DNA of 64,000 nucleotides, from the NCBI RefSeq assembly GCF_003966715.1, contig NZ_AP018907.1:3885391-3949390 (forward strand), in the 5' to 3' direction. Below are positions 18,129 to 58,486 of this stretch, piece after piece (position 1 is the stretch's first letter; each line of letters opens with the position of its first letter). The notes beneath the pieces were generated by a model. The model saw only the letters and a list, made by a program, of their open reading frames with translations, was not told where the DNA came from and did no database searches. The DNA is from Blastochloris tepida (GTDB lineage Bacteria > Pseudomonadota > Alphaproteobacteria > Rhizobiales > Xanthobacteraceae). A program made the position numbers and the translations under genes.

Positions 18129-19202
18129 TCATTTTGTTCTGGCCCAACGGTCGGCGCCCGAGCCGACCGCGTCGGCGATTTGCGCAAATCCGCCCTCGGC
18201 GAGCTTCGCCAGCAGCGTCGACTTGATGTCGCCGATCAGGCCGAGGCCCTTGAACACCATGCCGGAATAGAGCTGCACCAGCGTCGCCCCGGCCTCGATC
18301 TTGGCCCAGGCGGTCTCGCCCGACTCGACGCCGCCGACGCCGATCAGCGCGAACGCACCCTCGGCCCGCTGGTAGGTGTGGGCGAGCAGGCGCGTCGAGG
18401 GTTCGAACAGCGGCCGGCCGGACAGGCCACCGGCCTCCTTGGCCTGCGGGTCCTTCAGCGTCGCCGGCCGGGCGATGGTGGTGTTGGAGACCACCATGCC
18501 GTCGAGGCCGCGCCGCTTCACCACCGCCACCATGGCGTCGAGTGTCCCGAGATCGATGTCGGGAGCGATCTTGAGCAGCAGTGGCCGGCGCCGGGCCGCC
18601 GCCTCGCGCGCCTCGACGCAGCGGGCGACGAGGTCGTCGAGGGCGGCCGCCGCCTGCAGGTCGCGCAGGCCCGGGGTGTTGGGCGATGAGACGTTGAGGG
18701 TGAAGTAGTCGGCGACCGGCGCGAATGCCGCGATCAGCCGCACATAGTCGGCGGCGCGGTCGGCCGAATCCTTGTTGGCGCCGAGATTGAGCCCGACCAC
18801 CCCGCCGCGGCCGGCCCGGGCGGCAAGGCGCGCCCGCACGCGCTCCATCCCGTCATTGTTGAAGCCGAAGCGGTTGATCAGCGCCTGATCGGCCAGCAGG
18901 CGGAAGGCGCGCGGGCGCGGATTGCCGGGCTGCGGGCGCGGCGTCACCGCGCCGGCCTCGACGAAGCCGAAGCCGAGCCGGAGCAGCGCGTCGGGCACCT
19001 CGGCGTTCTTGTCCATGCCGGCGGCGGCGCCGAGCGGATTGGGAAAGCTGAGCCCGAACGCCTTGACCGCCAGCCGCGGATCGTCGGCTTCCGGCTTCGG
19101 CAGCGGCGCCAGCCTGAGCCCGGCCAGAAACAGCGCGTGGACCTGCTCCGGATCCATGGCGAGCAGGAGCGGGCGGGACAGGCGATCGAGAAGGCGGATC
19201 AT
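18129..19202 (-). CDS. pyrD: Dihydroorotate dehydrogenase (quinone), class 2
   Basis: A 357-residue flavoenzyme that oxidises dihydroorotate to orotate in pyrimidine synthesis and passes electrons to membrane quinones. Class 2 features are present: an N-terminal membrane-associating helix pair ([20 protein letters not shown]), the [22 protein letters not shown] region, NRFGFNND, the [11 protein letters not shown] catalytic-serine region, and the C-terminal [20 protein letters not shown] phosphate-binding loop. The start at 19202 gives the standard N-terminus; the open frame upstream to 19583 overlaps the divergent regulator's promoter and is not credible. Confidence 0.95.
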
Positions 19203-47214: not shown

Positions 47215-47694
47215 GTGTGCCCCGGCGCGCGAGGTGCGGGTCTTAGTCTGTGCGGTGAGGCGGGAAGGGTGGTGCCCCTGGCCGGTCTACCGGCTTCAGG
47301 CTAGATCAATCCGGTGCAACTGGTGGGACACCGGAAACCCGCAACGAGGGAATGCGGGTTTGCGGCCGTTTTGTCCCACCGTCCGGTCAGCTTCCCGCCA
47401 AGCCGAAAAACGAAAACCCCGCGGCTGGTGGCACAGCGCGCGGGGCTAATCGTAATGTTCCTGCCGGGCGGCGGAACGTCAGCAAAGCTAGCCGACGCGG
47501 CGGGCGCCCGCAAGAGCCTCGCCCGCCAGTCAGCGTCAATGACGATCCCCACCCCTATGGCCCCGACATCCCCGGCCGAGTAGGATCGTCCAGGCTTGGG
47601 TACGGCTGGGCTGCTTTCAGCACCGAGGAGCGCCTAATCGGCATCTTCGGGTTGCGCAAGAATGCGGTCGCTGCCCTTCTTGCGGAGGCGCGTC
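47215..47694. other. Left end of the integrated element: attL, nested hairpins, no clear gene
   Basis: About 480 bp. It includes attL (47270-47285). It also has a nested hairpin: outer arms GGTGGGACA (47322-47330) and TGTCCCACC (47372-47380), inner arms AAACCCGCA (47335-47343) and TGCGGGTTT (47353-47361). A further stem CCCCGCG/CGCGGGG lies near 47420-47445. A frame ending STEERLIGIFGLRKNAVAAL at 47702 overlaps the next gene but has no good start, so I do not call it. Confidence 0.5.
47270..47285. other. attL: 16-bp core shared with the tRNA-Leu 3' end
   Basis: TGGTGCCCCTGGCCGG is identical to 58402-58417, the CCA end, acceptor strand and part of the T-arm of tRNA-Leu. It is the displaced fragment of the original tRNA 3' end left by site-specific integration. 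The two copies are direct repeats bounding ~11.1 kb that contains the integrase. Confidence 0.9.
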
Positions 47695-48579
47695 ATGGCT
47701 GACGCTGCCCTCCGGACGTTCTCAAGCCTGACAGCCTCGACGCTCTACAACCACATCAACGCGGCGCGCTCGCCCGACCAGCTCGACAACCTTTGCAGTG
47801 CCCTCTGGCGCCATCAGGGCAAGGGCGAGATCAGCTACGACGAAGCGGTCTTCCTCGAATCGGCGATCGGCAAGCGCCGGCCTTGGCGTCCGTCCGGCAT
47901 GAAGATCGGCCCGCTTCGCGGCCGCATCGGATCGATCTTTGAGGAGCCGCGCAAGCCGCATCGCTCGCATGACCGCAAGGCGTCGCGCGAGCGCCGCAGA
48001 ATGCTCGGCGGCTCGGGGGCGATTCCGCCGCATCTGCGCGCCCTGTTCACCGAGGGCGAGCGCGCCGTGCTGGCCATCATCGCTGGCGAAGTGAAGCACC
48101 ACGGTCAATGCGATCTGCCGATCGACAAGATCGCCGCGCTCGCCGGCTGCTGCCGCACCACCGTGCAGAACGCGCTGAATGAGGCGCGCCGCGGAGGCCT
48201 GATCAGGATCACCGTGCGTCCGCAGCGTGGGCGCAAGAACCTGCCGAACGTCGTGGAGATCATCTCTCGCGAGTGGATGACGTGGCTTCGGCGAGGCCCC
48301 ACCGCACACCGGCCCAATAGGGTCCAAAATACCAAAATAGTGAACCCCTCGAAGAACATAGATATAAAAAAATACCAGCGCAAAAGCGAAGCGACAGCGG
48401 CAGCAGCGCAAGGGGCATTCGATGAAGGGCCGGGGCGATGTTCGCCTCCAAGGTCACACCGTGAGGTTGCCGCCAGCGGGGCGAAGAACAGAGGTTGCTC
48501 ATCCCCAACCCACTCCGCGCCGCTCTCCAAGCGGTCGACCCGGCCGTTGGGTCCTTCCCCCGCCAGGGCGTGCGAGTAA
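47695..48579 (+). CDS. Winged-helix protein of the element, possible replication or control protein
   Basis: A 294-residue protein. Residues ~100-215 hold a winged-helix-type domain: LFTEGERAVLAIIAGEVKHH, then IDKIAALAGCCRTTVQNALN (helix-turn-helix) and ARRGGLIRITVRPQRG. Similar proteins appear near plasmid or phage replication modules in Hyphomicrobiales. The C-terminal ~80 residues after NIDIKKYQRK are low complexity and Ser/Arg/Pro-rich. They are encoded partly by the most AT-rich stretch of the element (about 48318-48395), so an origin may overlap this part. The start at 47695 has a GGAGG site. Its function is not proven. Confidence 0.6.
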   Translation: MADAALRTFSSLTASTLYNHINAARSPDQLDNLCSALWRHQGKGEISYDEAVFLESAIGKRRPWRPSGMKIGPLRGRIGSIFEEPRKPHRSHDRKASRERRRMLGGSGAIPPHLRALFTEGERAVLAIIAGEVKHHGQCDLPIDKIAALAGCCRTTVQNALNEARRGGLIRITVRPQRGRKNLPNVVEIISREWMTWLRRGPTAHRPNRVQNTKIVNPSKNIDIKKYQRKSEATAAAAQGAFDEGPGRCSPPRSHREVAASGAKNRGCSSPTHSAPLSKRSTRPLGPSPARACE

Positions 48580-48651
48580 TTCGAACCCCATGACCTCGCT
48601 ACAGGAAGGCGATTTAGCAAGTAAACTCCGAGGCTTGAGGCAGGCTTAGCC

Positions 48652-49185
48652 ATGCAGGAAACGCAAGGCTTACCGCTTGGATACCGCCCGGCAGCAATGC
48701 CCGAGACGGTCTCCAAGCGCGCCTTCGCCGACCTCATAGGCGTGACGCAGGGCCGGGTGTCGCAGATGATCAAGGCCGGCTTGCCGGTCGAGCCCAACGC
48801 CCGCATCCACGTTGCGAAGGGCCGTGCGTGGGTGCGCGACAACATCGACACCAACCGCCGCCGTGCCAGCCTCGGCGAGGATGACGATCTCCGCGCCCCC
48901 ACCCCGCGCTCGACCCGTGACGCCGCCGAGGCGGAAATTGCCCTGCTGAAGGCCGGCCGCCTCGCCGGCAATCTGATTGACCGCAAGGCCACGCTCCGCA
49001 CCATCGAGACCCGTGCCCGCCAGGAGCGCGACGCCTGGATCGGCTGGGTGAATCGCGCCGCGCCCGAGCTCGCCCGCCTGCCGGCCGGCGATCTCGCCGC
49101 CATGGTGGCGGCGCTGGACCGCCTGGTGCGCGACCAGCTCGCCGCGCTCGCCGCCATGCCGCTGGACGGGCTCGACCATGACTGA
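48652..49185 (+). CDS. Phage terminase small subunit-like (Nu1-type) protein
   Basis: A 177-residue protein. The N-terminal winged helix (SKRAFADLIGVTQGRVSQMI, then KAGLPVEPNARIHVAKGRAW) is like the Nu1 DNA-binding domain. A helical region (RDAAEAEIALLKAGRLAGNL) and a long helical tail containing RARQERDAWIGWVNRAAPEL follow. Small terminases recognise the packaging site on phage or satellite DNA. Its stop overlaps the large-subunit start by 8 bp, the usual arrangement for this pair. The ATG at 48652 is used; a later ATG at 48697 is possible. Confidence 0.75.
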   Translation: MQETQGLPLGYRPAAMPETVSKRAFADLIGVTQGRVSQMIKAGLPVEPNARIHVAKGRAWVRDNIDTNRRRASLGEDDDLRAPTPRSTRDAAEAEIALLKAGRLAGNLIDRKATLRTIETRARQERDAWIGWVNRAAPELARLPAGDLAAMVAALDRLVRDQLAALAAMPLDGLDHD

Positions 49186-50989
49186 CCTCGACGCCCTGAC
49201 TGCCGAGTTGGTCGATGCCGCCTGGCGCCGCGGCCTCGCCCCCGAACCGCAGCTCACCGTGTCGGAATGGGCCGACCGTCACCGCATGCTGCCCACCGCC
49301 AACGCCGAGCCCGGCCCGTGGCGCACCGCGCGCGTGCCGTACCTGAAGGACATCATGGACGCGCTGTCGGTATCCTCGCCGGTCGAGCGCGTGGTGTTCA
49401 TGAAGGGCGCCCAGACCGGCGGCACCGAAGCCGGCCTCAACGCCATCGGTTATTGGATCGCCCACGCCCCCGGCCTCATCCTTGCGGTGTGGCCGTCGAT
49501 CGACATGGTCCGCCGCAACTCGCGCACCCGCATCGATCCCCTGATCGAGGGCACGCCCGAGCTGCGCCGCAAGATCGCCACGCCCCGCGCCAAGGACCCC
49601 GGCAACACCGTGGCGCTGAAGGAATTCCCCGGCGGCGCCCTGGTGATGACCGGCGCCAACTCCGCCACCGGCCTGCGCTCGACCCCGGCGCGCTATCTCA
49701 TGTTGGACGAGGTCGACGCCTTCCCGGCCGACGCCGACGACGAAGGCGACCCGGTGGCGCTCGCCGTGCAGCGCACCGTGACGTTCCGCGGCCGCCGCAA
49801 GATTCTCATGATCAGCACGCCGACGCTGGCCGGCGTGTCGCGCATCGAGAAGGCATTCGCCGAGAGCGATCAGCGCCGCTTCCATGTGCCGTGCCCGCAC
49901 TGCGGCACGTTCCAGGTGCTGGAATGGCGCGGCATCGCATGGCCCGAAGGCGAACCCGCCCGCGCCTTCTACGCCTGCCAGACCTGCGGCGGGGTGATCG
50001 AGGAGCACGACAAGCCGGCGCTGCTCTCAGCCGGCGAATGGCGCGCCACCGCGCCGGGTGACGGCCGCACCGCCGGCTTCCACCTGTCGGCGCTCTATTC
50101 GCCGTTCGAGAGCTGGGGTGAGATCGCGATCGACTTCCTTGCCTCGCGAAAAGACCCGACCCGGCTCAAGACCTGGACCAACCTCAAGCTCGGCGAGCCG
50201 TTCGAGGATCGCGACACCGCCCCGCTGGCGCCCGACACCCTCCAGGCCCGTGCCGAGGACTGGGGCGAGCTGCTGCCCGATGGCGTCGCAATCGTCACCG
50301 CCGGGGTCGACGTGCAGGACACCTGGCTGGCCATCGAGATTGTCGGCTGGGGGCTCGGCGAGGAATCGTGGTCGCTGGCCTATGAGGCGATCCACGGCGA
50401 CACTGCGCGGCCTGAGGTGTGGGACGCCCTCGACAGGCTGCTGGCGCAGCGCTTCCCACACCGTCGCGACGTGCCGCCACTGCCGATCGCCGCCGTGGCG
50501 ATCGATTCGGGCGGGCACCGCACCGGCGAGGTGATGACGTTTTCGGCCGCCCGGCTCAATCGCCGGGTCTGGGCCATCAAGGGCCGCGGCGGTCCCGGCG
50601 TGCCGCCGTGGCCGAAGCGCCCGCCCAAGGCCCGCCGCGCTGCGCTGGCGCCGGTTCACATCGTCGGCGTCGACAGCATCAAGTCGACGCTGTTCGCCCG
50701 CCTGCGGGCTGGCGAGCCCGAGGGCGCCGGCGCCTGCCACTTCCCGGCCGATCGCGATTACGCCTGGTTCGGCGAGCTGGTCGCCGAGCGCGCCGTGCGC
50801 AAGTACACCCGCGGCGTGGCGCGTCTGGAGTGGGTGAAGGATGCCGGGGTGCGAAACGAAGGGCTCGACACCCGCGTCTATGCCACCGCCGCGCTGCATG
50901 GCCTCTACGCCGCCGGCTGGCGCCTGACCGACCTTGCCGTCCGCATCAAAGAGGCGCCGAGGCCGCGCCGCAGCCGCCACCGGCCGTGA
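49178..50989 (+). CDS. Phage terminase large subunit, GpA family
   Basis: A 603-residue packaging motor. The ATPase part has TVSEWADRHRMLPTANAEPG, a Walker A variant KGAQTGGTEAG, and Walker B YLMLDEVDAFP, followed by the SAT-like coupling motif MISTPTLAG. A zinc-ribbon-like insert has CPHCG and CQTCG pairs. The nuclease part has the acidic motifs AGVDVQDTWLAIE and AVAIDSGGHRT. The GpA family (lambda-like) usually makes cos ends, so an element-specific cos site may exist, though I could not locate one. The 3' end faces hicB, with a 55-bp gap. Confidence 0.93.
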   Translation: MTDLDALTAELVDAAWRRGLAPEPQLTVSEWADRHRMLPTANAEPGPWRTARVPYLKDIMDALSVSSPVERVVFMKGAQTGGTEAGLNAIGYWIAHAPGLILAVWPSIDMVRRNSRTRIDPLIEGTPELRRKIATPRAKDPGNTVALKEFPGGALVMTGANSATGLRSTPARYLMLDEVDAFPADADDEGDPVALAVQRTVTFRGRRKILMISTPTLAGVSRIEKAFAESDQRRFHVPCPHCGTFQVLEWRGIAWPEGEPARAFYACQTCGGVIEEHDKPALLSAGEWRATAPGDGRTAGFHLSALYSPFESWGEIAIDFLASRKDPTRLKTWTNLKLGEPFEDRDTAPLAPDTLQARAEDWGELLPDGVAIVTAGVDVQDTWLAIEIVGWGLGEESWSLAYEAIHGDTARPEVWDALDRLLAQRFPHRRDVPPLPIAAVAIDSGGHRTGEVMTFSAARLNRRVWAIKGRGGPGVPPWPKRPPKARRAALAPVHIVGVDSIKSTLFARLRAGEPEGAGACHFPADRDYAWFGELVAERAVRKYTRGVARLEWVKDAGVRNEGLDTRVYATAALHGLYAAGWRLTDLAVRIKEAPRPRRSRHRP

Positions 50990-51044
50990 TCCGGTCGAAG
51001 TTCCTTGGGCAATGACCACCAAGCGGCAAATTTGCCGCTTGGTC

Positions 51045-51299
51045 TCACTCGGCGGCCGAGAGAATCGTGCCGCCGAGGTGCCGCGAGGGTGCCGGCACCT
51101 CGCGGCCAAGGTCGTGGGCGGCTTCGATCCAGGCGCGAATCGCGTCTTGGACGTTGACGATCGCCTCTTCCGGCGTCTCGCCGTCGCTCATGCAGCCGGG
51201 CAGGTCCGGCACGATCGCCGCGAAGCCGCCGCCGTCCGCCTCAGACAGCGGCTCGACCACCACCGGGTATTCAAGACGGGTCGGGTCATTGCGGGTCAT
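51045..51299 (-). CDS. hicB: HicB-family antitoxin
   Basis: An 84-residue protein with the degenerate RNase-H-like HicB fold: LEYPVVVEPLSEADGGGFAA, then IVPDLPGCMSDGETPEEAIV (the P-D-L-P-G-C motif is diagnostic), then NVQDAIRAWIEAAHDLGREV. It lacks a separate C-terminal DNA-binding domain, so regulation probably comes from the XRE protein encoded upstream in the same operon. It overlaps hicA by 14 bp. Confidence 0.88.
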   Translation of the reverse strand: MTRNDPTRLEYPVVVEPLSEADGGGFAAIVPDLPGCMSDGETPEEAIVNVQDAIRAWIEAAHDLGREVPAPSRHLGGTILSAAE

Positions 51300-51537
51300 G
51301 GGCCTTCCTCACGGCGTCGACGAACGCCACCAGCCTGCGAATATATACCGGCTTGATCGGCCGCTTGTAGGGCACGGTGAGAATCACCGGTACCGCCGGG
51401 TGGGCGACCTTGTAGTGCGAGCTGCCGCCGCGGGCTGCCTCGCAGGTAATGCCGTGCTCGCGGCATAGCGCCTCGACGTCCTCGATGCGCCAATCGCCCT
51501 GCGGATTGCCGCGCATCTGTTCCAGGCGCTTGCTCAC
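51286..51537 (-). CDS. hicA: HicA-family mRNA interferase toxin
   Basis: An 83-residue toxin with a dsRNA-binding-like fold. The N-terminal helix ends in RIEDVEALCREHGITCEAAR. The catalytic His41 is in GGSSHYKVAHP, followed by a strand ILTVPYKRPIKPVYIRRLVA. HicA proteins cleave mRNA when not bound by HicB. This copy is slightly longer than E. coli HicA. The start overlaps the XRE stop (ATGA) and its stop region overlaps hicB, so all three are coupled. Confidence 0.88.
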   Translation of the reverse strand: MSKRLEQMRGNPQGDWRIEDVEALCREHGITCEAARGGSSHYKVAHPAVPVILTVPYKRPIKPVYIRRLVAFVDAVRKAHDPQ

Positions 51538-51794
51538 GCGGGTCGATCCTTCTTCAGCCGCACGCCCGGCCCGCCGCCGTTCTCGGCGATGAACTCGACG
51601 CCAGCCTCTTCGAGGGCGCGCTGAACCGCCGCGACATTGTTCGCCATACCAGCGGCTGGCCCTACGCTGGCCTCCATTCGACGAAGTGTGGCGATCGAGA
51701 CCTTGGACCTCTCCGCCAAGTCCGTTTGAGCCATCCCCACCAGCGAGCGGGCAGCGGCGATCTGGCGCCCTGTGACCTGAGTTAAATCGCTCAC
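51534..51794 (-). CDS. XRE-family repressor heading the hicAB operon
   Basis: An 86-residue protein that is little more than one Cro/CI-type helix-turn-helix: TGRQIAAARSLVGMAQTDLA, then ERSKVSIATLRRMEASVG. The tail (VQRALEEAGVEFIAENGGGP) is the typical short dimer end of such regulators. The start is a GTG at 51794. It is the first gene of a leftward three-gene operon and faces rightward genes across an 80-bp gap with an inverted operator, as a lysogeny-type or satellite master repressor would. It may regulate hicAB as well as the element's rightward genes. Confidence 0.85.
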   Translation of the reverse strand: MSDLTQVTGRQIAAARSLVGMAQTDLAERSKVSIATLRRMEASVGPAAGMANNVAAVQRALEEAGVEFIAENGGGPGVRLKKDRPA

Positions 51795-51796
51795 TT

Positions 51797-51840
51797 TGAT
51801 ATGAACCTATTGACCGACGTTATTTGAGCTGTTTATATCA
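51797..51840. promoter_or_regulatory. Divergent operator/promoter between the XRE gene and the rightward genes
   Basis: Inverted arms TGATATGAAC (51797-51806) and GTTTATATCA (51831-51840) match at 9 of 10 positions, 24 bp apart. A rightward promoter lies between and over them: TTGACC at 51810-51815, a 17-bp spacer, TTATAT at 51833-51838. The right arm covers the -10 box, so a bound repressor should block it. This is an AT-rich island within GC-rich DNA. Confidence 0.65.
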
Positions 51841-51873
51841 TTGTGCATTCAAACGCTCAATGGAGCAACACCA

Positions 51874-52158
51874 ATGCCGAACACCACCGTTTCGGCTGCC
51901 GGCGGAGCTATGCCCGCGGCCAGCCAAGAGACCAACGAGGCGACCAAGCTGGGGTCGCTGATTGGCGCATTAGACGCCCTGCATAAGGCCCAGCACCTCG
52001 CCGAACTGCTCTACTTGGCCGGCGAAGGTCTTATGCGTGTCGACAGGGAGGTCGGAGAAGCCGTCATGACCGGCGTCGGCGCCCTCAAGGACAATCTCGA
52101 AGAAGTTGATGCGCTCCTCGAAGAGCTGCACGAGCGCGAGAGGGGGGACGCGGAATGA
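51874..52158 (+). CDS. Small helical protein of the element, function unknown
   Basis: A 94-residue acidic protein, mostly helical (LGSLIGALDALHKAQHLAEL, then LYLAGEGLMRVDREVGEAVM). It resembles small phage early proteins that I cannot assign. The ATG at 51874 has a GGAG site; the open frame extends to 51841 with a non-ATG codon. It is the first rightward gene after the XRE operator, and overlaps the next gene by ATGA. Confidence 0.7.
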   Translation: MPNTTVSAAGGAMPAASQETNEATKLGSLIGALDALHKAQHLAELLYLAGEGLMRVDREVGEAVMTGVGALKDNLEEVDALLEELHERERGDAE

Positions 52159-52430
52159 CCGAACAGGAAACAGAAGCTGCGGCAGAAGCCTGCACGCCAT
52201 TCGAAATCTCCTGCGAGATGGAAGACGATCTCGACGAATTGAGAGCGCTGGCCATGGCTCTCGACCTCATGGCCATGGGTATGTCGACCGACGAAAAGGA
52301 CGAAGATTCGGTCCCGATCGGACATATCGCTCGGAGGATGAAGAGATTGGTCGAAGCAGTAGAGGAACGGCGCGAGCAGCTTTTCAAAATGCTCCACCCT
52401 CGCCGACATGAACTGGAGGGCTCGGCATGA
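52155..52430 (+). CDS. Small acidic protein of the element, function unknown
   Basis: A 91-residue protein, strongly acidic at the start, with helices (LDELRALAMALDLMAMGMST, then IARRMKRLVEAVEERREQLF). It overlaps its neighbours on both sides by ATGA, so it is translationally coupled. Its family is not recognised. Confidence 0.7.
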   Translation: MTEQETEAAAEACTPFEISCEMEDDLDELRALAMALDLMAMGMSTDEKDEDSVPIGHIARRMKRLVEAVEERREQLFKMLHPRRHELEGSA

Positions 52431-52552
52431 CCCCGGAACCGATTTTCGCCGTTGCTCTGGTGTCCTGCGCCATCTCGCTCGCTGCCGGGTTCGCCCTCGG
52501 CCGGCTGACGCTGCCGGATAGCCGAGGCGCCTACGCCAGGCCGTGGCGCTAA
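52427..52552 (+). CDS. 41-residue single-pass membrane peptide
   Basis: A short gene starting at the ATGA overlap with the upstream stop (52428-52430). It encodes MTPEPIFAVALVSCAISLAA followed by GFALGRLTLPDSRG and ends RPWR. One membrane helix with a basic C-terminus is evident. Size and coupling suggest a real small gene; a holin-like or regulatory membrane role is only a guess. Confidence 0.5.
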   Translation: MTPEPIFAVALVSCAISLAAGFALGRLTLPDSRGAYARPWR

Positions 52553-52602
52553 GCACCCGCCGCGGTTCCAGACGGAGCGCTGCTGATCGGCACGATGCAA
52601 AG

Positions 52603-52688
52603 CGCCCGCCACAATAAAACGCTCACGCTCGATCGTTTGCTTGTGGCGGGCGTCGAGACCTGATAAAACGATCACACCCGATCGTTTT
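52603..52688. promoter_or_regulatory. Nested palindromes: two operator-like copies and a hairpin
   Basis: Copy 2 (52665-52688) has perfect 9-bp arms AAAACGATC and GATCGTTTT around ACACCC. Copy 1 (52616-52639) has AAAACGCTC and GATCGTTTG around ACGCTC, 49 bp away. Copy 1 is itself enclosed by a 12-bp inverted repeat, CGCCCGCCACAA (52603-52614) and TTGTGGCGGGCG (52641-52652). The next gene (52700, HTH protein) starts 11 bp after copy 2, so autorepression is likely. Confidence 0.7.
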
Positions 52689-52699
52689 AGAGGCGCGCC

Positions 52700-53206
52700 A
52701 TGACCTTCACCACATCCCACATCTGCAAGGCTTTCAATCTGAACCCGGTTTCCCTTCGTCGGTGGATGAATGATCCGAATTACCCGTTGCGCGTCGAGGC
52801 GCGCTCGGAAGAGAGCGCCGGCTGGCGCCGGTTCAACATGGCCGATGCAGTTCGTATTAGCCTCGTTTCGAGACTGATCAACAACCATTCTGTTGAGTCC
52901 TGGAATGCCGTTTATGCCGTGAATTCGATTTACGACCTCATCAGCATCAAGGTTCCGGAGTTTCTTGCTGCTGCTCAGGCCAACGGAAACTGGTTTCAAG
53001 AGCAGACTTGTTTCGTGATGTTCTTCCGTATGGACGACGATCCGGCTTTCCACCGGGTTTTTGATACGATCGATGGACTTGTCGAGGCGGCGACGAACCG
53101 CTCCATTTCCGGAACGATCCTCTTCGAGCTGTGGAGTGAGACGCTGCGGGCTGCCAGCAACTTGCAGACGGTTCCGCCCGAAGCGCAGCAGGACCTCGGC
53201 GAGTAG
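52700..53206 (+). CDS. MerR-like helix-turn-helix protein of the element
   Basis: A 168-residue protein. The first ~70 residues look like a winged HTH: FTTSHICKAFNLNPVSLRRW, then MNDPNYPLRVEARSEESAGW and RRFNMADAVRISLVSRLINN, the pattern of MerR/AlpA-like domains. The rest is helical with aromatic residues and has no known match. GC content is clearly lower than in flanking genes, suggesting separate origin. Paired palindromes just upstream suggest it controls itself, and being upstream of portal it may control the head genes. Confidence 0.65.
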   Translation: MTFTTSHICKAFNLNPVSLRRWMNDPNYPLRVEARSEESAGWRRFNMADAVRISLVSRLINNHSVESWNAVYAVNSIYDLISIKVPEFLAAAQANGNWFQEQTCFVMFFRMDDDPAFHRVFDTIDGLVEAATNRSISGTILFELWSETLRAASNLQTVPPEAQQDLGE

Positions 53207-53214
53207 GTCCGCAG

Positions 53215-54618
53215 ATGCCCCCCGCCCGCGACATCCTCAAGGTCCACAGCCGCTCGCTGGACGCCGGCGGCGGCGGGCGCCGGTGGTCGGATGACCGCCG
53301 CATCACGTCCGCCGGCGTGCTCCACCAGTCCGCCGCCACGGTTGGCGCTCGCGCGCTGGCCTACGCCCTCAACAACGCCAACGGCGCCCGCATCGTCGAA
53401 TCGCTCGCCGCCAACCTGATCGGCGAGGGCATCAAGCCGCGTTCAGAGCACCCCGCCGAGAGCACCCGCCAGGGCTTGCACCGCGCCTTCCGCGGCTGGA
53501 CCGACCGGGCTGACGCCGATGGCCTGACCGATTTCTACGGCCTCGAGGCGCACGGGGCGCGTGACCAGGTGGTGTTCGGCGAAGCGCTGTTCGTGTTCCT
53601 CGCCGACCCGCTGACCGGCGCGCCGCAGCTCCGCCGGCTGCACCCGGAGCAGCTCGACCGTTCCTGGACCCGCCGCCTCGACACGGGCGGCGCCGTCCAT
53701 CAGGGCGTCGAGTTCGACGCCGTGGGCCGCATCGTCGCCTATCACATTCGCCGGGCCGCCCCCGGCGATGCGCTCGCGGGGATCGCGGTGGCACCCGACC
53801 GCGTCCCGGCGGGCGACGTCATCCATGTGTTCCGCCAGCTGGTGCCGGGGCAGGTCCGCGGCCTGTCGTGGTTCGCGCCGGTGCTGCTGCCGGCCAAGGA
53901 GCTGGACGCGCTGCTCGATGCGTTGCTGGTGCGCGCCAAGGTCGCCGCGCTCCACGCCGGCTTCATCACCGACCCCGAGGGCACCCCGCCCTATGACGGC
54001 GAGCAAAGCGGCTCGACCTTCGACGCCTCGCTTGAACCCGGCGCGCTGATCACCCTGCCGCCGGGCAAGAGCGTGGAATTCCCCGAGACGCCCGACCAGG
54101 GTGGCGCCTCGGCGCTCTTGACCGCGTCCTTGCGCATGATCGCCGCCGGCGCCGGCGCCACCTATGAGCACGCCACCGGCGATTACAGCCAGACCAACTA
54201 TTCCAGCTCGCGCGGCGCGCTGCTGGAGTTCCGCCGGTTCTGCCGCTCCGTCCAGCACCACACCTTGGTGCACCAGTTCTGCCGGCCGGTGTGGGACCGC
54301 TTCATCCGCTGGCAGGTGCTCGCCGGCACCATTCCGGCGCTGGCCTATCAGCGCGACGTCGTCGCCTTCCACGCCGTGAAGTGGCTGCCGCCGGCCTGGG
54401 ATTGGGTCGACCCCATGAAGGATGCTCAGGCCGCAGAGATCGAGCTGCGCAACCATCTGCGCTCGCGCTCCGAGATCATCGCCGAGCGCGGCTATGACGC
54501 CGAGGACGTCGACCGCGAGATCGCCGCCGATCAGGCCCGGCTCGACCGCCTCGGCATCGCCCCGGCGCCGGCCGCGCCGAGCACCACCCCGACCGATCAA
54601 TCCGAGGTCTCCCTATGA
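53215..54618 (+). CDS. Phage portal protein, lambda family
   Basis: A 467-residue head-vertex protein. Typical features of the lambda portal family are the early ALAYALNNANGARIVESLAA segment, VFGEALFVFLADPLTGAPQL, RLHPEQLDRSW, GVEFDAVGRIVAYHIRRAAP, DVIHVFRQLVPGQVRGLSWF and the later TGDYSQTNYSSSRGALLEFR. The dodecameric portal is the DNA entry and exit port of the capsid and docks terminase. It starts 8 bp after the HTH gene and overlaps the next gene by ATGA. Confidence 0.92.
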   Translation: MPPARDILKVHSRSLDAGGGGRRWSDDRRITSAGVLHQSAATVGARALAYALNNANGARIVESLAANLIGEGIKPRSEHPAESTRQGLHRAFRGWTDRADADGLTDFYGLEAHGARDQVVFGEALFVFLADPLTGAPQLRRLHPEQLDRSWTRRLDTGGAVHQGVEFDAVGRIVAYHIRRAAPGDALAGIAVAPDRVPAGDVIHVFRQLVPGQVRGLSWFAPVLLPAKELDALLDALLVRAKVAALHAGFITDPEGTPPYDGEQSGSTFDASLEPGALITLPPGKSVEFPETPDQGGASALLTASLRMIAAGAGATYEHATGDYSQTNYSSSRGALLEFRRFCRSVQHHTLVHQFCRPVWDRFIRWQVLAGTIPALAYQRDVVAFHAVKWLPPAWDWVDPMKDAQAAEIELRNHLRSRSEIIAERGYDAEDVDREIAADQARLDRLGIAPAPAAPSTTPTDQSEVSL

Positions 54619-54968
54619 GCTACCTTCGCCTCGAATACCTCGCCGTCGAGAAGGTCGAAGCCCGCCGCGATCCCACTGGCGGTGTCGCGGCCGGTCAGGT
54701 GCTGGCGAGCGAGCTGCTGACGGTTTCGGCGACGCCGCTTGCGGGCGCCGCGCGTGGCACCGTGCCGGCCGATTGCTCGCTGGTGCGCGCGTCGGTGTTC
54801 GGCGAGGGCGCCTATGGCGTGGCCGTGAAGGTCGCGACCGATGCCACGCTGGCCAACCAGGCCGCCGCCAAGACCGACCCGTGCCTGTGGCTCACCTCGG
54901 GCCACGACTGGATTTTCCCGGCCTCACCCGGCGATCGCATCACCGCCGTTGACGCCAGCGTGTCCTAG
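54615..54968 (+). CDS. Small head-associated protein, putative decoration or accessory protein
   Basis: A 117-residue, mainly beta protein (VEARRDPTGGVAAGQVLASE, then PADCSLVRASVFGEGAYGVA). It lies between portal and the protease-capsid gene, a place where head decoration or accessory proteins occur. I do not recognise a family. The start overlaps the portal stop and the next gene begins 15 bp later. Confidence 0.6.
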   Translation: MSYLRLEYLAVEKVEARRDPTGGVAAGQVLASELLTVSATPLAGAARGTVPADCSLVRASVFGEGAYGVAVKVATDATLANQAAAKTDPCLWLTSGHDWIFPASPGDRITAVDASVS

Positions 54969-54983
54969 CCCGGAGGCCAGCCC

Positions 54984-56786
54984 ATGAACGCCCCCGCTTT
55001 CGTCCGCGCCGCCTTCACCCCGTCGTCGGTCGACGACGACGCCCGCACCGCCGAGCTGATCGCCGCCACCGGCGCCGGTGTCGACCGCGCCGACTTCGAC
55101 GGCCCGTTCCGCGAGGTGCTGGAGATCAGCGAACGCGCCGTTGACCTGTCGCACATCGAGGGCATGCCGCTGCTCGACAACCACAACCGCCGAACCGTCG
55201 ACGACATCAAGGGCGCGGTGCGCGGCGGCCGAATTGAAGCAGGCCAGCTCATCCTCAAGGTCGAGTTCTCGCCCCGCGCCGAGGACGTCTTCCAGGACGT
55301 CAAGCGCGGCATCATCCGCAACGTCAGCGTCGGTTACGCGCCCGAGACGTGGCGTGACAGTACGGACCAGAAGGGTGCTCGGGTCCGCACCATCACGCGC
55401 TGGGCGCTCCATGAGGTGTCCCTGGTGCCGGTTGGCGCCGATCCCAACGCGAAGGTTCGCAACATGCCCGAAACGACCCCCACGACTGACGCGCCCCCGC
55501 CGAACACCACCACGCCCGCAGCCGTCACCACTCGCGCGGCCGCCAACCAGGAAATCCGTGCGCTGGCCACCACCTTCGACCTCGGCAGCGACTGGGCCAA
55601 CGATCTGATCGACCGCGGCGCCAGCGAGGGCGAGGCCCGCGCCGCTGCGCTGGAGGCGATGCGCACCCGCCAGAGCCGGCCGGCGCCGGCGGCGCGCGTC
55701 ACGGTCGGCTTCTCCAATGACGACCCGGCGCAGCTCGTGACCCGCATGGGCGAGGCGCTGTACGCCACCCGCGCCAATCCGCGCCATCAGCTCAGCGAGC
55801 CGGCCCGGCCCTACGCCAACCTCACCACGTTGGACATGGCCCGCGAGTGCCTGCGGGCGCGCGGCTTCTCGACCACCGGCCTCAACCCGGTCGACACCAT
55901 CACCCGCGCCCTGCACACCACCTCCGACTTCCCGGCGATCTTCGGCGACACTGCCAACCGGGTGCTGCGGGCCGCGTATCAGGCGGCGCCAGCGGTGCTG
56001 AAGCGCGCGGCCCGCCAGACCTCGCATCGTGACTTCCGCGCCAAGACCCGCATTCAGGTGTCGGAGGCGCCGTCGCTGGAAAAGGTCCATGAGGCCGGCG
56101 AGTTCAAATACGGAACCTTCGCCGAGGCCAAGGAGAGCTACAAGGTCGACACCTTCGGCAAGATTTTCGGCATCTCGCGCCAGGCGCTCGTGAATGACGA
56201 CCTCGGGGCGTTCACCGATGTTGGCGGCAAGTTCGGGCTCGCCGCTGCCGAGTTCGAGGGGCAGTTCCTGGTGAGCCTCCTGGTGCAGGGTTCCGGCCTC
56301 GGGCCGACGATGGACGACGCCAAGCGCCTGTTCCACACCGACCACGGCAACCTTGCGTCGTCTGGAGCTGCACTCAGCGAAACCACGCTGGACGCCGCGC
56401 GACTGGCGATGCGCCGGCAGAAGGGCCTCACCGGATCGCCCGTCAACGTCGCGCCGCGGTTCCTGCTGGTGCCGCCCGAGCTGGAGACCGACGCAGAGAA
56501 ACTGCTGGCGCAGTTGCAGCCCATCAAGACCGAGGACGTGAACCCGTTCGGCGGCAAGCTTGAGCTGTTGGTCGAAGCCCGCCTGACCGACGCTTATCGC
56601 TGGTACGTCGTCGGCGATCCAGCCGTCATCGAGGGCTTGGAATACGCCTACCTGCAAGGCTCCGAAGGCCCGCAGACCGAGACGCGCGCCGGCTTCGAGG
56701 TCGATGGCATGGAGTTCAAGGTGCGCCTCGACTTCGGCGCCGCCTTCCTCGACCACCGCGGCTGGTACACCAACGCCGGCCACTGA
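54984..56786 (+). CDS. Prohead protease fused to major capsid protein
   Basis: A 600-residue fusion. Residues ~40-160 are an HK97/U35-type prohead protease: His67 in MPLLDNHNRRTVDDIKGAVR and Ser115 in RGIIRNVSVGYAPETW, then RWALHEVSLVPVGADPNAKV. After a Thr/Pro linker (~165-190) comes a helical scaffold-like part. The capsid domain runs from about 260 (LTTLDMARECLRARGFSTTG) to the end. It contains AGEFKYGTFAEAKESYKVDT, FGISRQALVNDDLGAFTDVG and LLVPPELETDAEKLL, like Mu-type/HK97-fold major head proteins. Self-cleavage would release the capsid subunit. Confidence 0.88.
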   Translation: MNAPAFVRAAFTPSSVDDDARTAELIAATGAGVDRADFDGPFREVLEISERAVDLSHIEGMPLLDNHNRRTVDDIKGAVRGGRIEAGQLILKVEFSPRAEDVFQDVKRGIIRNVSVGYAPETWRDSTDQKGARVRTITRWALHEVSLVPVGADPNAKVRNMPETTPTTDAPPPNTTTPAAVTTRAAANQEIRALATTFDLGSDWANDLIDRGASEGEARAAALEAMRTRQSRPAPAARVTVGFSNDDPAQLVTRMGEALYATRANPRHQLSEPARPYANLTTLDMARECLRARGFSTTGLNPVDTITRALHTTSDFPAIFGDTANRVLRAAYQAAPAVLKRAARQTSHRDFRAKTRIQVSEAPSLEKVHEAGEFKYGTFAEAKESYKVDTFGKIFGISRQALVNDDLGAFTDVGGKFGLAAAEFEGQFLVSLLVQGSGLGPTMDDAKRLFHTDHGNLASSGAALSETTLDAARLAMRRQKGLTGSPVNVAPRFLLVPPELETDAEKLLAQLQPIKTEDVNPFGGKLELLVEARLTDAYRWYVVGDPAVIEGLEYAYLQGSEGPQTETRAGFEVDGMEFKVRLDFGAAFLDHRGWYTNAGH

Positions 56787-56798
56787 TCGGGGATCACC

Positions 56799-57011
56799 GT
56801 GGCAACGCTCGCCGAGCTGCAAGCCCGCCTCGACGCCCTGCGCGCCCTGCGCGCGCGGGGCATCCGCCGGGTGTCCTATCAGGGCCAGGAAGTCGAATTC
56901 CGCTCCGACGCCGAAATGGCGTCGGCGATCGCCGATCTTGAACGGCAGGTCGCCGCGCTCAGCGGGCGCCGCGTCTCAACCGTCTACATCAACGCTTCGA
57001 AGGGCGTGTGA
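56799..57011 (+). CDS. gpW-like head completion (head-tail joining) protein
   Basis: A 70-residue protein closely matching the small gpW-type layout: helix (LAELQARLDALRALRARGIR), beta hairpin (RVSYQGQEVEFRSDAEMASA), helix (IADLERQVAAL) and a short tail. Lambda gpW closes the filled head below the portal and prepares it for tail attachment. The start is GTG with GGGG upstream. Its stop overlaps the next start (TGATG). In this element it is the last morphogenesis gene: no tail genes follow. Confidence 0.78.
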   Translation: MATLAELQARLDALRALRARGIRRVSYQGQEVEFRSDAEMASAIADLERQVAALSGRRVSTVYINASKGV

Positions 57012-57259
57012 TGCCCCGCCAGACCTCGCTTCCGCCGAACCTCCCGCCGCGCGGTATCGCCCGCGAGGTTGCGGCGCAGTATGTCGGCGTCTCGACAGCG
57101 AAATTTGATGACATGGTGCGGGACGGTCGCATGCCCGCCCCGAAGCTGATCGATGGCCGGCTGGTGTGGGATGTCCGCGCGCTCGACCTCGCCTTCGATC
57201 GCTTGCCGAGCCGGGGGCCGGATCGGCCCGACCGCTCATCCCGCGAAATCGTGTTGTGA
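57011..57259 (+). CDS. AlpA/excisionase-like HTH protein
   Basis: An 82-residue protein with a winged-helix core: RGIAREVAAQYVGVSTAKFD, then DMVRDGRMPAPKLIDGRLVW and DVRALDLAFDRLP. This is the pattern of AlpA-type regulators and phage excisionases (an HTH that reads a target, then a basic wing). It is 2 bp upstream of the integrase, the normal place for a recombination directionality factor. It overlaps gpW by TGATG, tying integration control to the head operon. Confidence 0.78.
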   Translation: MPRQTSLPPNLPPRGIAREVAAQYVGVSTAKFDDMVRDGRMPAPKLIDGRLVWDVRALDLAFDRLPSRGPDRPDRSSREIVL

Positions 57260-57261
57260 CC

Positions 57262-58398
57262 ATGGGCACCGTCCGGCTCCGCTTCGTCACGGTGGACGTC
57301 GATCGGCACGGCAACGTCCGCTACTATTTCCGCCGGCCGGGGCAGCCGAAGGTGCGCCTCCGCGGCGTTCCGGGCTCGGCCGAATTCATGGCCGGCTATG
57401 CGGACGCGCTCGCCGGCGTGGCTCCGACAACTCCGCCGCCGCGACGAACCCGGAAGCCGCAGGCCGGAACCCTTCGCTGGCTCGCCGCTGAGTATTTCGC
57501 GTCGGCCCCGTTCAAGGAGCTTGGCCCGCGCACCCGGCGTGTCCGCCGCGCCATCATCGAGAAGGTCTGCGAAAGCGCCGGTGATGAACCGTTCGCCGAC
57601 ATCACCGGGCCGGTGATCCGTAAGGGCATGGACCGCAGGGCAGACACGCCGGAGGCCGCGAACTCGTTCCTGAAGGCGCTTCGGCATCTGTTCGCCTGGG
57701 CGGTTGATGCAGGGCACCTCGCCGCCAACCCGGCCCGAGACGTGAAGAAGCTGCGCGGCAATCCCGAGGGCTGGCACACCTGGACTGTTGAAGAGGTTCG
57801 CCAGTTCGAAGCGCGCCATCCGATCGGCTCGCAGGCCCGCCTTGCCTTGGCGCTGCTGGCCTACACGGGCGTTCGTCGCTCGGATGTGGTGAAGCTCGGC
57901 CGCCAGCACGTCCGGGAAGGCCGGCTGCGTTTCACGGTCACGAAGAACCAGGAGCGCAGCCCGGTGGTGGTCGACATCCCGCTGCTGCCCGAGTTGCAGG
58001 CGGTCATCGATGCCAGCCCGGCCGGAAACCTCACGTTCCTGGTGACGATCCACGACAAGCCGTTCACCGGCGATGGGTTTGGAAACAAGTTCCGCCGCTG
58101 GTGCCGGCAGGCGGGCCTGCCGCATTGCTCGCCCCACGGTGTGCGCAAGGCGGCGGCGACGATCGCCGCTGAGAACGGCGCCACCGAAGCCCAGCTCGAC
58201 GCAATCTTCGGGTGGACCGGCCGCAAGATGGCCGCGCACTACACCGCCAAGGCCAACCGCTCGAAGCTGGCGACATCCGCCATGCCGATGCTGGTTCCGG
58301 CACAATCAGGGAACGGAACTGTCCCACTTTCGCCGCCAGACGCCGACAGTGAGACAAAAAAGAGAGGAAAGACGAGGAAAAACAATGGTAGACGCTAA
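57262..58398 (+). CDS. int: Tyrosine-type site-specific integrase
   Basis: A 378-residue recombinase. A short N-terminal arm-binding domain (YYFRRPGQPKVRLRG) is followed by a core-binding SAM-like domain (LRWLAAEYFASAPFKELGPR onward). The catalytic domain has Arg205 (YTGVRRSDV), His292 and Arg295 (SPHGVRKAAA), Trp318 (FGWTGRKM) and the nucleophile Tyr327 (AAHYTAKA), a complete set. The C-terminal ~40 residues are Lys/Arg-rich. The stop lies 3 bp before the att core, so the enzyme is next to its own site, as expected. The ATG at 57262 is used; the earlier frame overlaps the AlpA-like gene. Confidence 0.94.
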   Translation: MGTVRLRFVTVDVDRHGNVRYYFRRPGQPKVRLRGVPGSAEFMAGYADALAGVAPTTPPPRRTRKPQAGTLRWLAAEYFASAPFKELGPRTRRVRRAIIEKVCESAGDEPFADITGPVIRKGMDRRADTPEAANSFLKALRHLFAWAVDAGHLAANPARDVKKLRGNPEGWHTWTVEEVRQFEARHPIGSQARLALALLAYTGVRRSDVVKLGRQHVREGRLRFTVTKNQERSPVVVDIPLLPELQAVIDASPAGNLTFLVTIHDKPFTGDGFGNKFRRWCRQAGLPHCSPHGVRKAAATIAAENGATEAQLDAIFGWTGRKMAAHYTAKANRSKLATSAMPMLVPAQSGNGTVPLSPPDADSETKKRGKTRKNNGRR

Positions 58399-58401
58399 GA
58401 T

Positions 58402-58417
58402 TGGTGCCCCTGGCCGG
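58402..58417. other. attR: 16-bp core inside the tRNA-Leu gene
   Basis: TGGTGCCCCTGGCCGG, identical to attL at 47270-47285. It comprises the CCA end, discriminator base, acceptor 3' strand and start of the T-arm of the tRNA on the minus strand. The element thus restores a complete tRNA gene on integration. Confidence 0.9.
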
Positions 58418-58486
58418 GATCGAACCAGCACTCCTTGCGGAACGCGATTTTGAGTCGCGCGCGTCTACCAGTTCCGCCACAGGGGC
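58402..58486 (-). tRNA. tRNA-Leu (anticodon CAA)
   Basis: An 85-nt tRNA on the minus strand, read from 58486 to 58402. The acceptor stem is GCCCCTG with CAGGGGC, followed by A and an encoded CCA. The D-arm is GCGGAACTGGTAGACGCG. The anticodon arm is CGCGA-CT-CAA-AA-TCGCG, so the anticodon is CAA (reads UUG). A long variable arm (TTCCGCAAGGAGT) marks it as class II. The T-arm is CCGGC/GCTGG around TTCGATC. Its 3' end is the attachment site of the element at 47270-58417. Confidence 0.95.

Follow-up and report, generated by a model that had tools for sequence, protein, structure and literature searches.

Does a run of phage head genes without recognisable tail genes, integrated at a tRNA gene, represent a satellite that builds its own capsid, or the remains of a phage? 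The question was raised by a 64,000-bp stretch of the Blastochloris tepida genome (NZ_AP018907.1, positions 3,885,391 to 3,949,390; hereafter the window, whose numbering is used for coordinates unless stated otherwise). It contains E1, an 11,132-bp integrated element at 47270-58417 flanked by perfect 16-bp direct repeats, for which a sequence-only reading had proposed a capsid-forming satellite or a related lineage. E1 is very probably a capsid-forming phage satellite; the proposal was supported, and its second half, a related lineage, fits best.

Boundaries and head genes of E1

The left repeat (attL, 47270..47285, plus strand) is an exact copy of the right repeat (attR, 58402..58417, plus strand). 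Because ARAGORN placed a tRNA-Leu(CAA) gene, the integration target, on the minus strand at 58402..58486, the right repeat corresponds to the 3' end of that gene. The 16-mer occurred exactly twice in the window, and there were still two matches when two mismatches were allowed; shuffled sequences gave a mean of 0.14, and none of 100 shuffles reached two. The initial description, about 11.1 kb between perfect 16-bp att repeats in tRNA-Leu, was therefore borne out. The GC content of E1 was 0.678, compared with 0.698 for the remainder of the window. The host genome is a single contig of 3.95 Mb.

The head and packaging genes all lie on the plus strand. The small terminase subunit TerS (48652..49185; phrog_57 9.3e-23 on the in-frame slice 48691-49185) is followed by a large subunit, TerL, of the gpA type (49178..50989; PF05876 3.5e-93, PF20454 4.6e-85) and by a portal of the lambda family (53215..54618; PF05136 8.3e-81). 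A single 600-aa open reading frame (ORF; 54984..56786) joins, by Pfam, an S78 prohead protease to a PF25209/gpT-like major capsid protein (PF25209 5e-56, PF04586 2.1e-8, phrog_4523 1.4e-197). Behind it lie a gpW-like head-tail adaptor (56799..57011; phrog_2545 1.2e-16), an AlpA-like regulator or excisionase (57008..57259, or from an ATG at 57011; phrog_25900 5.9e-16, phrog_66 1.7e-5, no Pfam match) and a tyrosine integrase (57262..58398; PF00589 2.3e-14, phrog_1 3.5e-37), also on the plus strand. Pfam and PHROGs thus recovered each of the genes named in the sequence-only reading, and the tight junctions that it described were found as well: ATGA at the portal, TGATG between gpW and the AlpA-like gene, and 2 bp between the AlpA stop and the integrase ATG at 57262. 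When compared with solved structures, the capsid gave weak matches to the Mu gpT domain and gpW gave one unconvincing match, to a designed protein (E 0.08).

Tail genes in E1 and its relatives

Among the E1 proteins that were scanned with Pfam and PHROGs, none was assigned to a tail or lysis family, the small minus-strand ORFs and 51841-52430 being scanned by Pfam only. E1 was also searched with 75 reference tail, neck, holin and lysin proteins, and there was no match even at E 0.01; both results agree with the earlier statement that no tail or lysis gene can be recognised. The references comprised the annotated tail, neck, holin and lysin genes of phages L166, L167, L222, L223 and L225, the unannotated downstream genes of L221, and genes from tail regions of the B. 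tepida genome itself (L203, L204, L205 and L208), some of which were named from position only. This search can detect tails, since 5-10 tail genes were found in each of nine tailed loci (L212, L213, L214, L219, L220, L251, L254, L255 and L257).

Relatives were collected by a capsid alignment search, from which 160 loci were retained, the best 80 of 168 from genomes and the best 80 of 386 from viral contigs; genes outside the window were called with our own codon-usage script. By label, the 80 genome loci came from alphaproteobacteria or, in two cases, from bins labelled only Proteobacteria or proteobacterium; the placement of their genera in Alphaproteobacteria is our assumption. A capsid was recognised in all 160 loci, a portal in 152, TerL in 106 and gpW in 156, the low counts being partly edge effects because many contigs are cut. 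No tube, sheath, baseplate, holin or lysin match was obtained in the 160 loci with the 75 references (E 1e-4). The sole reference matches at that threshold were to a tape measure or a tail assembly chaperone, in 13 of the 160. Relatives with a tape measure, some with a chaperone or neck-type protein and at varying positions, were L062, L070, L085, L108, L120, L122, L124, L134, L136, L146, L155 and L165; in L108, PHROGs also recognised a tail-completion/neck protein and a tape measure belonging to the same cluster. TerL, portal and capsid with an integrase within 6 kb behind it were found in 65 of the 160 loci, none of which had a tube, sheath or baseplate match, so the block recurs as a tail-less unit, as the sequence-only reading had required.

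The 52-53% Paracoccus-type loci were first suspected to be full prophages because no integrase lies behind gpW. This was rejected for those that were examined, L018, L036 and L041, which had no tail match; they carry primase, terminase, cargo, portal, capsid, gpW and decoration genes (L036 read from ORFs only). In the Paracoccus-type subfamily (L017, L018, L041, L046 and others) a large primase gene lies 5' of terS.

Gene order and relationships of the family

The gpW gene lay 3' of the capsid gene in 156 of the 156 loci, among the 160, in which it was recognised. The tailed relatives had another order: a match to the gpW hidden Markov model (HMM) was located between terL and portal in all 16 that were examined (L212-L214, L219, L220, L251, L254, L255, L257 and phages L166, L167 and L221-L225; the tail of L221, LPPA33, is only assumed because it is annotated with hypothetical proteins only). 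Unlike these 16, E1 does not have gpW between terL and portal.

In a less biased sample, taken by portal, 22 of 100 genomes from the host's family had a match. Nine loci of this sample comprised four with gpW before the portal together with tail genes and five with gpW after the capsid; of the latter, L252 and L256 had no tail match, and L250, L253 and L258 had a tape measure, accompanied in two of the three by a minor tail/neck match. In a class-wide sample some capsid match, often short or weak, was found in 34 of 385 genomes, only some of the 34 being examined. In the phage collection, all 129 records that matched the E1 capsid did so at less than 60% identity (best of 30 listed, 40.3%).

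In a capsid tree, a quick tree without a mixture model that was thinned to 82 of 178 capsids (9 of the 12 tailed), 72 of 73 tail-less rows fell on one side of a branch with an SH-aLRT of 98, and the nine tailed rows and L211 fell on the other. Tape-measure carriers accounted for nine of 72 rows and required at least three changes (L211 and the tailed rows were left out of this count). The arrangement common to the family, in which gpW lies behind the capsid gene and adjoins the integrase end, points to a single ancient origin and not to tails lost repeatedly.

An integrase was present behind the capsid gene in 29 of 84 loci, and in 22 of these a direct repeat 14 bp or longer overlapped a gene for tRNA or tmRNA. 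The integration targets were tRNA genes for Leu, Asp, Arg, Phe, Met, Trp, Cys, Asn and Thr, and tmRNA. Twenty-one of the 22 att-bounded sizes were between 9,878 and 12,456 bp (mean 11,242, standard deviation 612), the exception being E2, a second element of the same genome, at 16,348 bp. Omega values for terL, portal, capsid and gpW were 0.06-0.36 when the E1/L006 pair was set aside; synonymous changes were absent from one gpW pair, and many integrase pairs and the E1/L006 terL pair were too distant for omega. The head and packaging genes appear, from these ratios, to be under purifying selection. The metagenomic contig L100, the sole contig with a terminal repeat among 80 viral contigs, has an exact 127-bp terminal repeat, as expected of an 11,371-bp circle, and carries alpA, int, a replication-type gene, terminase, portal, capsid, gpW (by BLAST cluster) and decoration genes. 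It looks like a closed 11.37-kb circle.

Alternative explanations

That the head proteins of E1 are homologous to those of tailed phages, and that relatives with some tail genes exist, would fit a defective prophage, in which deletion had removed the tail and lysis genes of an ordinary tailed phage. We consider this very unlikely. Because gpW precedes the portal in 16 of 16 tailed relatives, deletion of a tail alone would not have produced the E1 gene order; moreover, most tail-less rows form one clade, their sizes are tight, purifying selection is indicated and att repeats are intact in many hosts. A deletion scar was rejected on the gpW position and the capsid clade. The sequence-only reading had named a full prophage with a tail at the gpW/AlpA junction as contrary evidence; none was found among the 160 loci, and this part stood, but several relatives do carry a partial, tail-length set at that place. 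Several small ORFs of E1 belong to no family, and E1 might instead be a virus that needs no helper, with genes for a tail or for entry that went unrecognised in the cargo interval or at another place in the genome. This is unlikely: the ORFs at 51841-52430, 52700-53206 and 54615-54968 had a homologue in no other fetched locus and so are not a conserved tail, PHROGs labels gpW as a head-tail adaptor, and every capsid match in the phage collection is below 60% identity.

Gene transfer agents (GTAs) are not known to have an integrase, att site or packaging site of their own, unlike E1, in which an integrase, att repeats and a cos-like motif are present; relatives of E1 also occupy different tRNA genes in different hosts. 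Alphaproteobacteria commonly carry GTA genes (PMC9836097), and GTA-like tail genes do occur in this genome, at a locus apart from E1 (L205, C1:2360000-2379999, that is, C1:2.36-2.38 Mb). It is very unlikely that E1 is a domesticated head, whether a GTA or a capsid-based weapon. Near-identical transposase-like ORFs were observed in L205, one on each side of part of the GTA-like cluster.

Several points weigh against the interpretation of E1 as a satellite within a tail-less family. The 160 loci were picked by similarity to E1, and at least 17 of them are near-copies of others (capsid 98% or more). Two, L080 and L085, had no recognised gpW or portal. A chaperone, a tape measure and sometimes a neck/completion protein are located at or near the gpW/AlpA junction in several relatives, and weak matches were seen in L104 (to a head-tail attachment protein, 1.4e-4) and in L108 (to a minor tail/neck protein, 1.5e-4). 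Tail genes evolve fast, and a dissimilar tail could be missed. L211 (G051 C2:1267000-1286999) has gpW after the capsid gene, yet its capsid groups with those of tailed phages; its downstream genes were unassigned and gave no tail match, and it is possibly a second origin of this arrangement, with a tree placing L211 among the tail-less rows not being rejected (p-AU 0.357). L211 was therefore kept outside both groups. Seven of the 29 loci with an integrase had no att repeat, and the repeat counts were made with repeats at tRNA genes preferred when choosing and with no chance control. The omega values of the E1/L006 pair were higher, 0.39 for capsid and 0.43 for portal. An exact empty site was not obtained: in two sister species, one of them covered for only 785 bases beyond the tRNA-Leu gene, this gene does not adjoin E1 and the left flank could not be aligned. 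Finally, a cos-like motif lies about 100 bp upstream of terS in the tailed L167, L220 and L257, though not in certain other tailed relatives.

Comparison with known satellites

Capsid-forming phage-inducible chromosomal islands (cf-PICIs) carry an integrase and AlpA, and E1 is like them in having an integrase and an AlpA-type regulator and in that no tail genes were found. The E1 integrase is downstream of the head genes and co-directional with them, which differs from the cf-PICI order of integrase and head genes. Use of helper tails is probably common to both. The cf-PICIs encode capsid, protease, portal, connectors, both terminases and an HNH protein and are widely distributed across Bacteria (PMC10690885). 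By that definition E1 resembles them in its own major capsid, protease, portal, head-tail connector and both terminase subunits, and differs in that no HNH protein was found among the scanned E1 proteins. Their capsids form three clades (PMC11389934). They occur mainly in Enterobacteriaceae, Pasteurella, Morganellaceae and several Firmicutes groups and average 14 kb (PMC10803314); E1 is about 11 kb, and alphaproteobacterial hosts are outside that host list. E1 also differs in its gpA-type terminase, lambda-type portal, fused protease-capsid and gpW. Because the HNH of the described gene set is lacking and the head families are different, E1 was not classed as a cf-PICI; we conclude that it would work like one with a different head module.

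The same head type is found in tailed phages of Rhodobacter (RcKemmy), Paracoccus (Pben1) and Microcystis (yong2), which have homologous terminase, portal, protease-capsid fusion and gpW and often the decoration protein. In these phages, of about 40 kb, the capsid is about 33-40% identical (among the records listed), gpW precedes the portal and tail genes are present; the tail module of such a temperate phage was not found in E1.

Phage-inducible chromosomal island-like element (PLE) satellites build chimeric tails in which the tape measure is their own, and a figure legend of the same paper states that putative tape-measure genes occur in a sampling of cf-PICIs (PMC12987554), so tape measures in satellites have been published before. 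E2 and some relatives are like PLEs in carrying a tape measure, some with a chaperone; E1 itself, unlike PLEs, had no tape measure or chaperone match. PLEs also differ from E1 in that they remodel the capsid proteins of their helper (PMC10945586). The Streptomyces satellites MulchRoom and MiniFlayer, compared by description, have like E1 their own terminase, portal, capsid and head-tail adapter, but differ in hosts, direct terminal repeats and virulent helpers (PMC10690885). In a survey of alphaproteobacterial phages the words 'satellite' and 'PICI' do not occur (PMC10783043). No paper on head-only satellites in Alphaproteobacteria was found in a literature search, which is weak evidence of novelty because most subscription journals were outside its coverage.

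On balance we favour, with moderate confidence, a broader interpretation in which E1 belongs to an undescribed, old class of capsid-forming satellites that is centred on Alphaproteobacteria, is independent in origin of the three cf-PICI radiations and combines a lambda/gpW-type head with a lambda-type cos belonging to the element. The chassis of this class, with a helix-turn-helix (HTH) gene at one end and AlpA and integrase at the other, could also take an HK97-type head, as in the third element, E3, and some members (E2 and relatives) would add a contractile-phage tape measure and chaperone, setting their own tail length on stolen tails. If this is true, a separate lineage of capsid-forming satellites exists in a bacterial class for which the consulted sources list none.

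In the proposed cycle, activation of a helper phage would lead to excision and replication of E1, whose 11-kb genome would then be packaged, from the cos of the element, into small heads that E1 itself encodes. The gpW protein would finish the head, and tails and lysis would be taken from the helper. Genome-length arithmetic gives a head of about T=3 if the related 40-kb phages are T=7, which is assumed. The helper is possibly a contractile-tailed phage; this guess was made because the tape measures of relatives match L203, L204 and L222 best, and never L166, L167, L223 or L225, and because L203 and L222 have sheath genes.

A putative cos site

The motif GGGTCCTTC (48549..48557, plus strand) is the cosQ-like part of a putative lambda-type cos site, with a cosN-like block within about 35 bp 3' of it. 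In phage lambda GGGTCCTTTCC, which we take to be cosQ, lies 30 bp from the right end. The E1 motif is followed by GTGCGAGTAATTCG at the place where lambda has CGCGGGTTTTCGC. Frequency alone was uninformative, as control words inside terL were equally frequent, and the motif was therefore tested by position and mismatch counts. An exact copy was present upstream of terS in 40 of 85 loci (E1 being counted twice, as the window and as L001), and in 1.3 Mb of sequence 40 of 42 forward copies were upstream of terS, with two reverse copies. Within one mismatch, the motif was upstream of terS in 57 of 85 loci, compared with two of 85 in an equal-length downstream stretch (terminase region). Half of the 28 loci without the motif (14) belong to the primase-bearing cluster. 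Because some tailed relatives carry it, the motif alone cannot separate satellites from phages. A second exact GGGTCCTTC copy was seen at window position 18448, outside E1.

Related elements and prophages in the same genome

E2 (L004 1185-17583; C1 about 985.2-1001.6 kb) is integrated at a tRNA-Asp gene. It encodes a primase/helicase, TerS, a 632-aa tape measure, TerL, portal, capsid, gpW, a small protein in the place of AlpA, and an integrase. The tape measure, between TerS and TerL, is its one recognised tail gene, and its capsid is 51% identical to that of E1.

E3 (L207 1954-17794; C1 about 874.0-889.8 kb; 15,826 bp) is located at a tRNA-Glu gene and has an HTH gene like that of E1 at one end and an AlpA-like protein and an integrase at the other. 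Its head genes form an HK97-type set (TerL, TerS, a weak HNH match (PF01844 3.4e-4), a gp6-like connector, capsid, S78 protease and portal), from which the terminase, portal and capsid families of E1 differ; an 86-residue fragment, or remnant, of a gpA-type TerL is also present. A search of 852-928 kb with the 75 references, prompted by a 45.9-kb viral call spanning E3, found no tail gene match in or beside E3.

A prophage at C1 about 1.126-1.163 Mb (L203, L208, L209) encodes a tail sheath (phrog_23 1.4e-100), a tape measure and other tail proteins. By our reading of its ORFs it is probably Mu-like and complete, and it is a candidate helper for E1; the gene taken as its tube is named head closure protein by PHROGs. 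A second, partial prophage (L204), which we also read as probably Mu-like, has a tape measure similar to that of E2 (2.5e-67). With three such elements, which between them have two kinds of head and a single tape measure, and with a contractile-type prophage, this genome is well suited to studying how heads are swapped and tails are stolen.

Remaining features of E1

Features beyond the sequence-only reading were the cos motif, an HTH gene and a HicB-like gene with its neighbours. The HTH protein (47662..48579, start maybe 47695, plus strand) is possibly a replication initiator; phrog_15967 (3.9e-55) is a phage family of unknown function, and the match to the replication initiators of phrog_270 (6.4e-4) is weak. 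It has an HMM homologue at the end of E3. On the minus strand of the terL-portal interval lie a HicB-like antitoxin (51045..51299; PF15919 5.1e-14), a HicA-like toxin (51286..51537; PF07927 3.7e-4) and an XRE-type HTH protein (51534..51794; PF01381 1.1e-3), the latter two being weak matches under the cut-off; the HicB-like and HicA-like genes are regarded as cargo. Two small plus-strand ORFs follow (51841-52158 and 52155-52430; no Pfam family), and a 168-aa protein with no family lies 5' of the portal (52700..53206, plus strand). A 117-aa protein (54615..54968, plus strand) also matched no family and is possibly, as a guess from position, a head decoration protein; it had one database homologue, at 79%.

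Because the terL-portal gap holds restriction-modification genes in several relatives and the HicB-like gene in E1, E1-type elements may move phage defences. N6 methylase domains were found in six of 110 cargo proteins of this gap, the scan covering 110 of 125 proteins and the top 25 families per scan. In L018 the gap contains a BsuBI/PstI-type restriction-modification pair. Among the names of the protein-database matches are also those of an uncultured Sphaerochaeta and of an assembly from a green alga.

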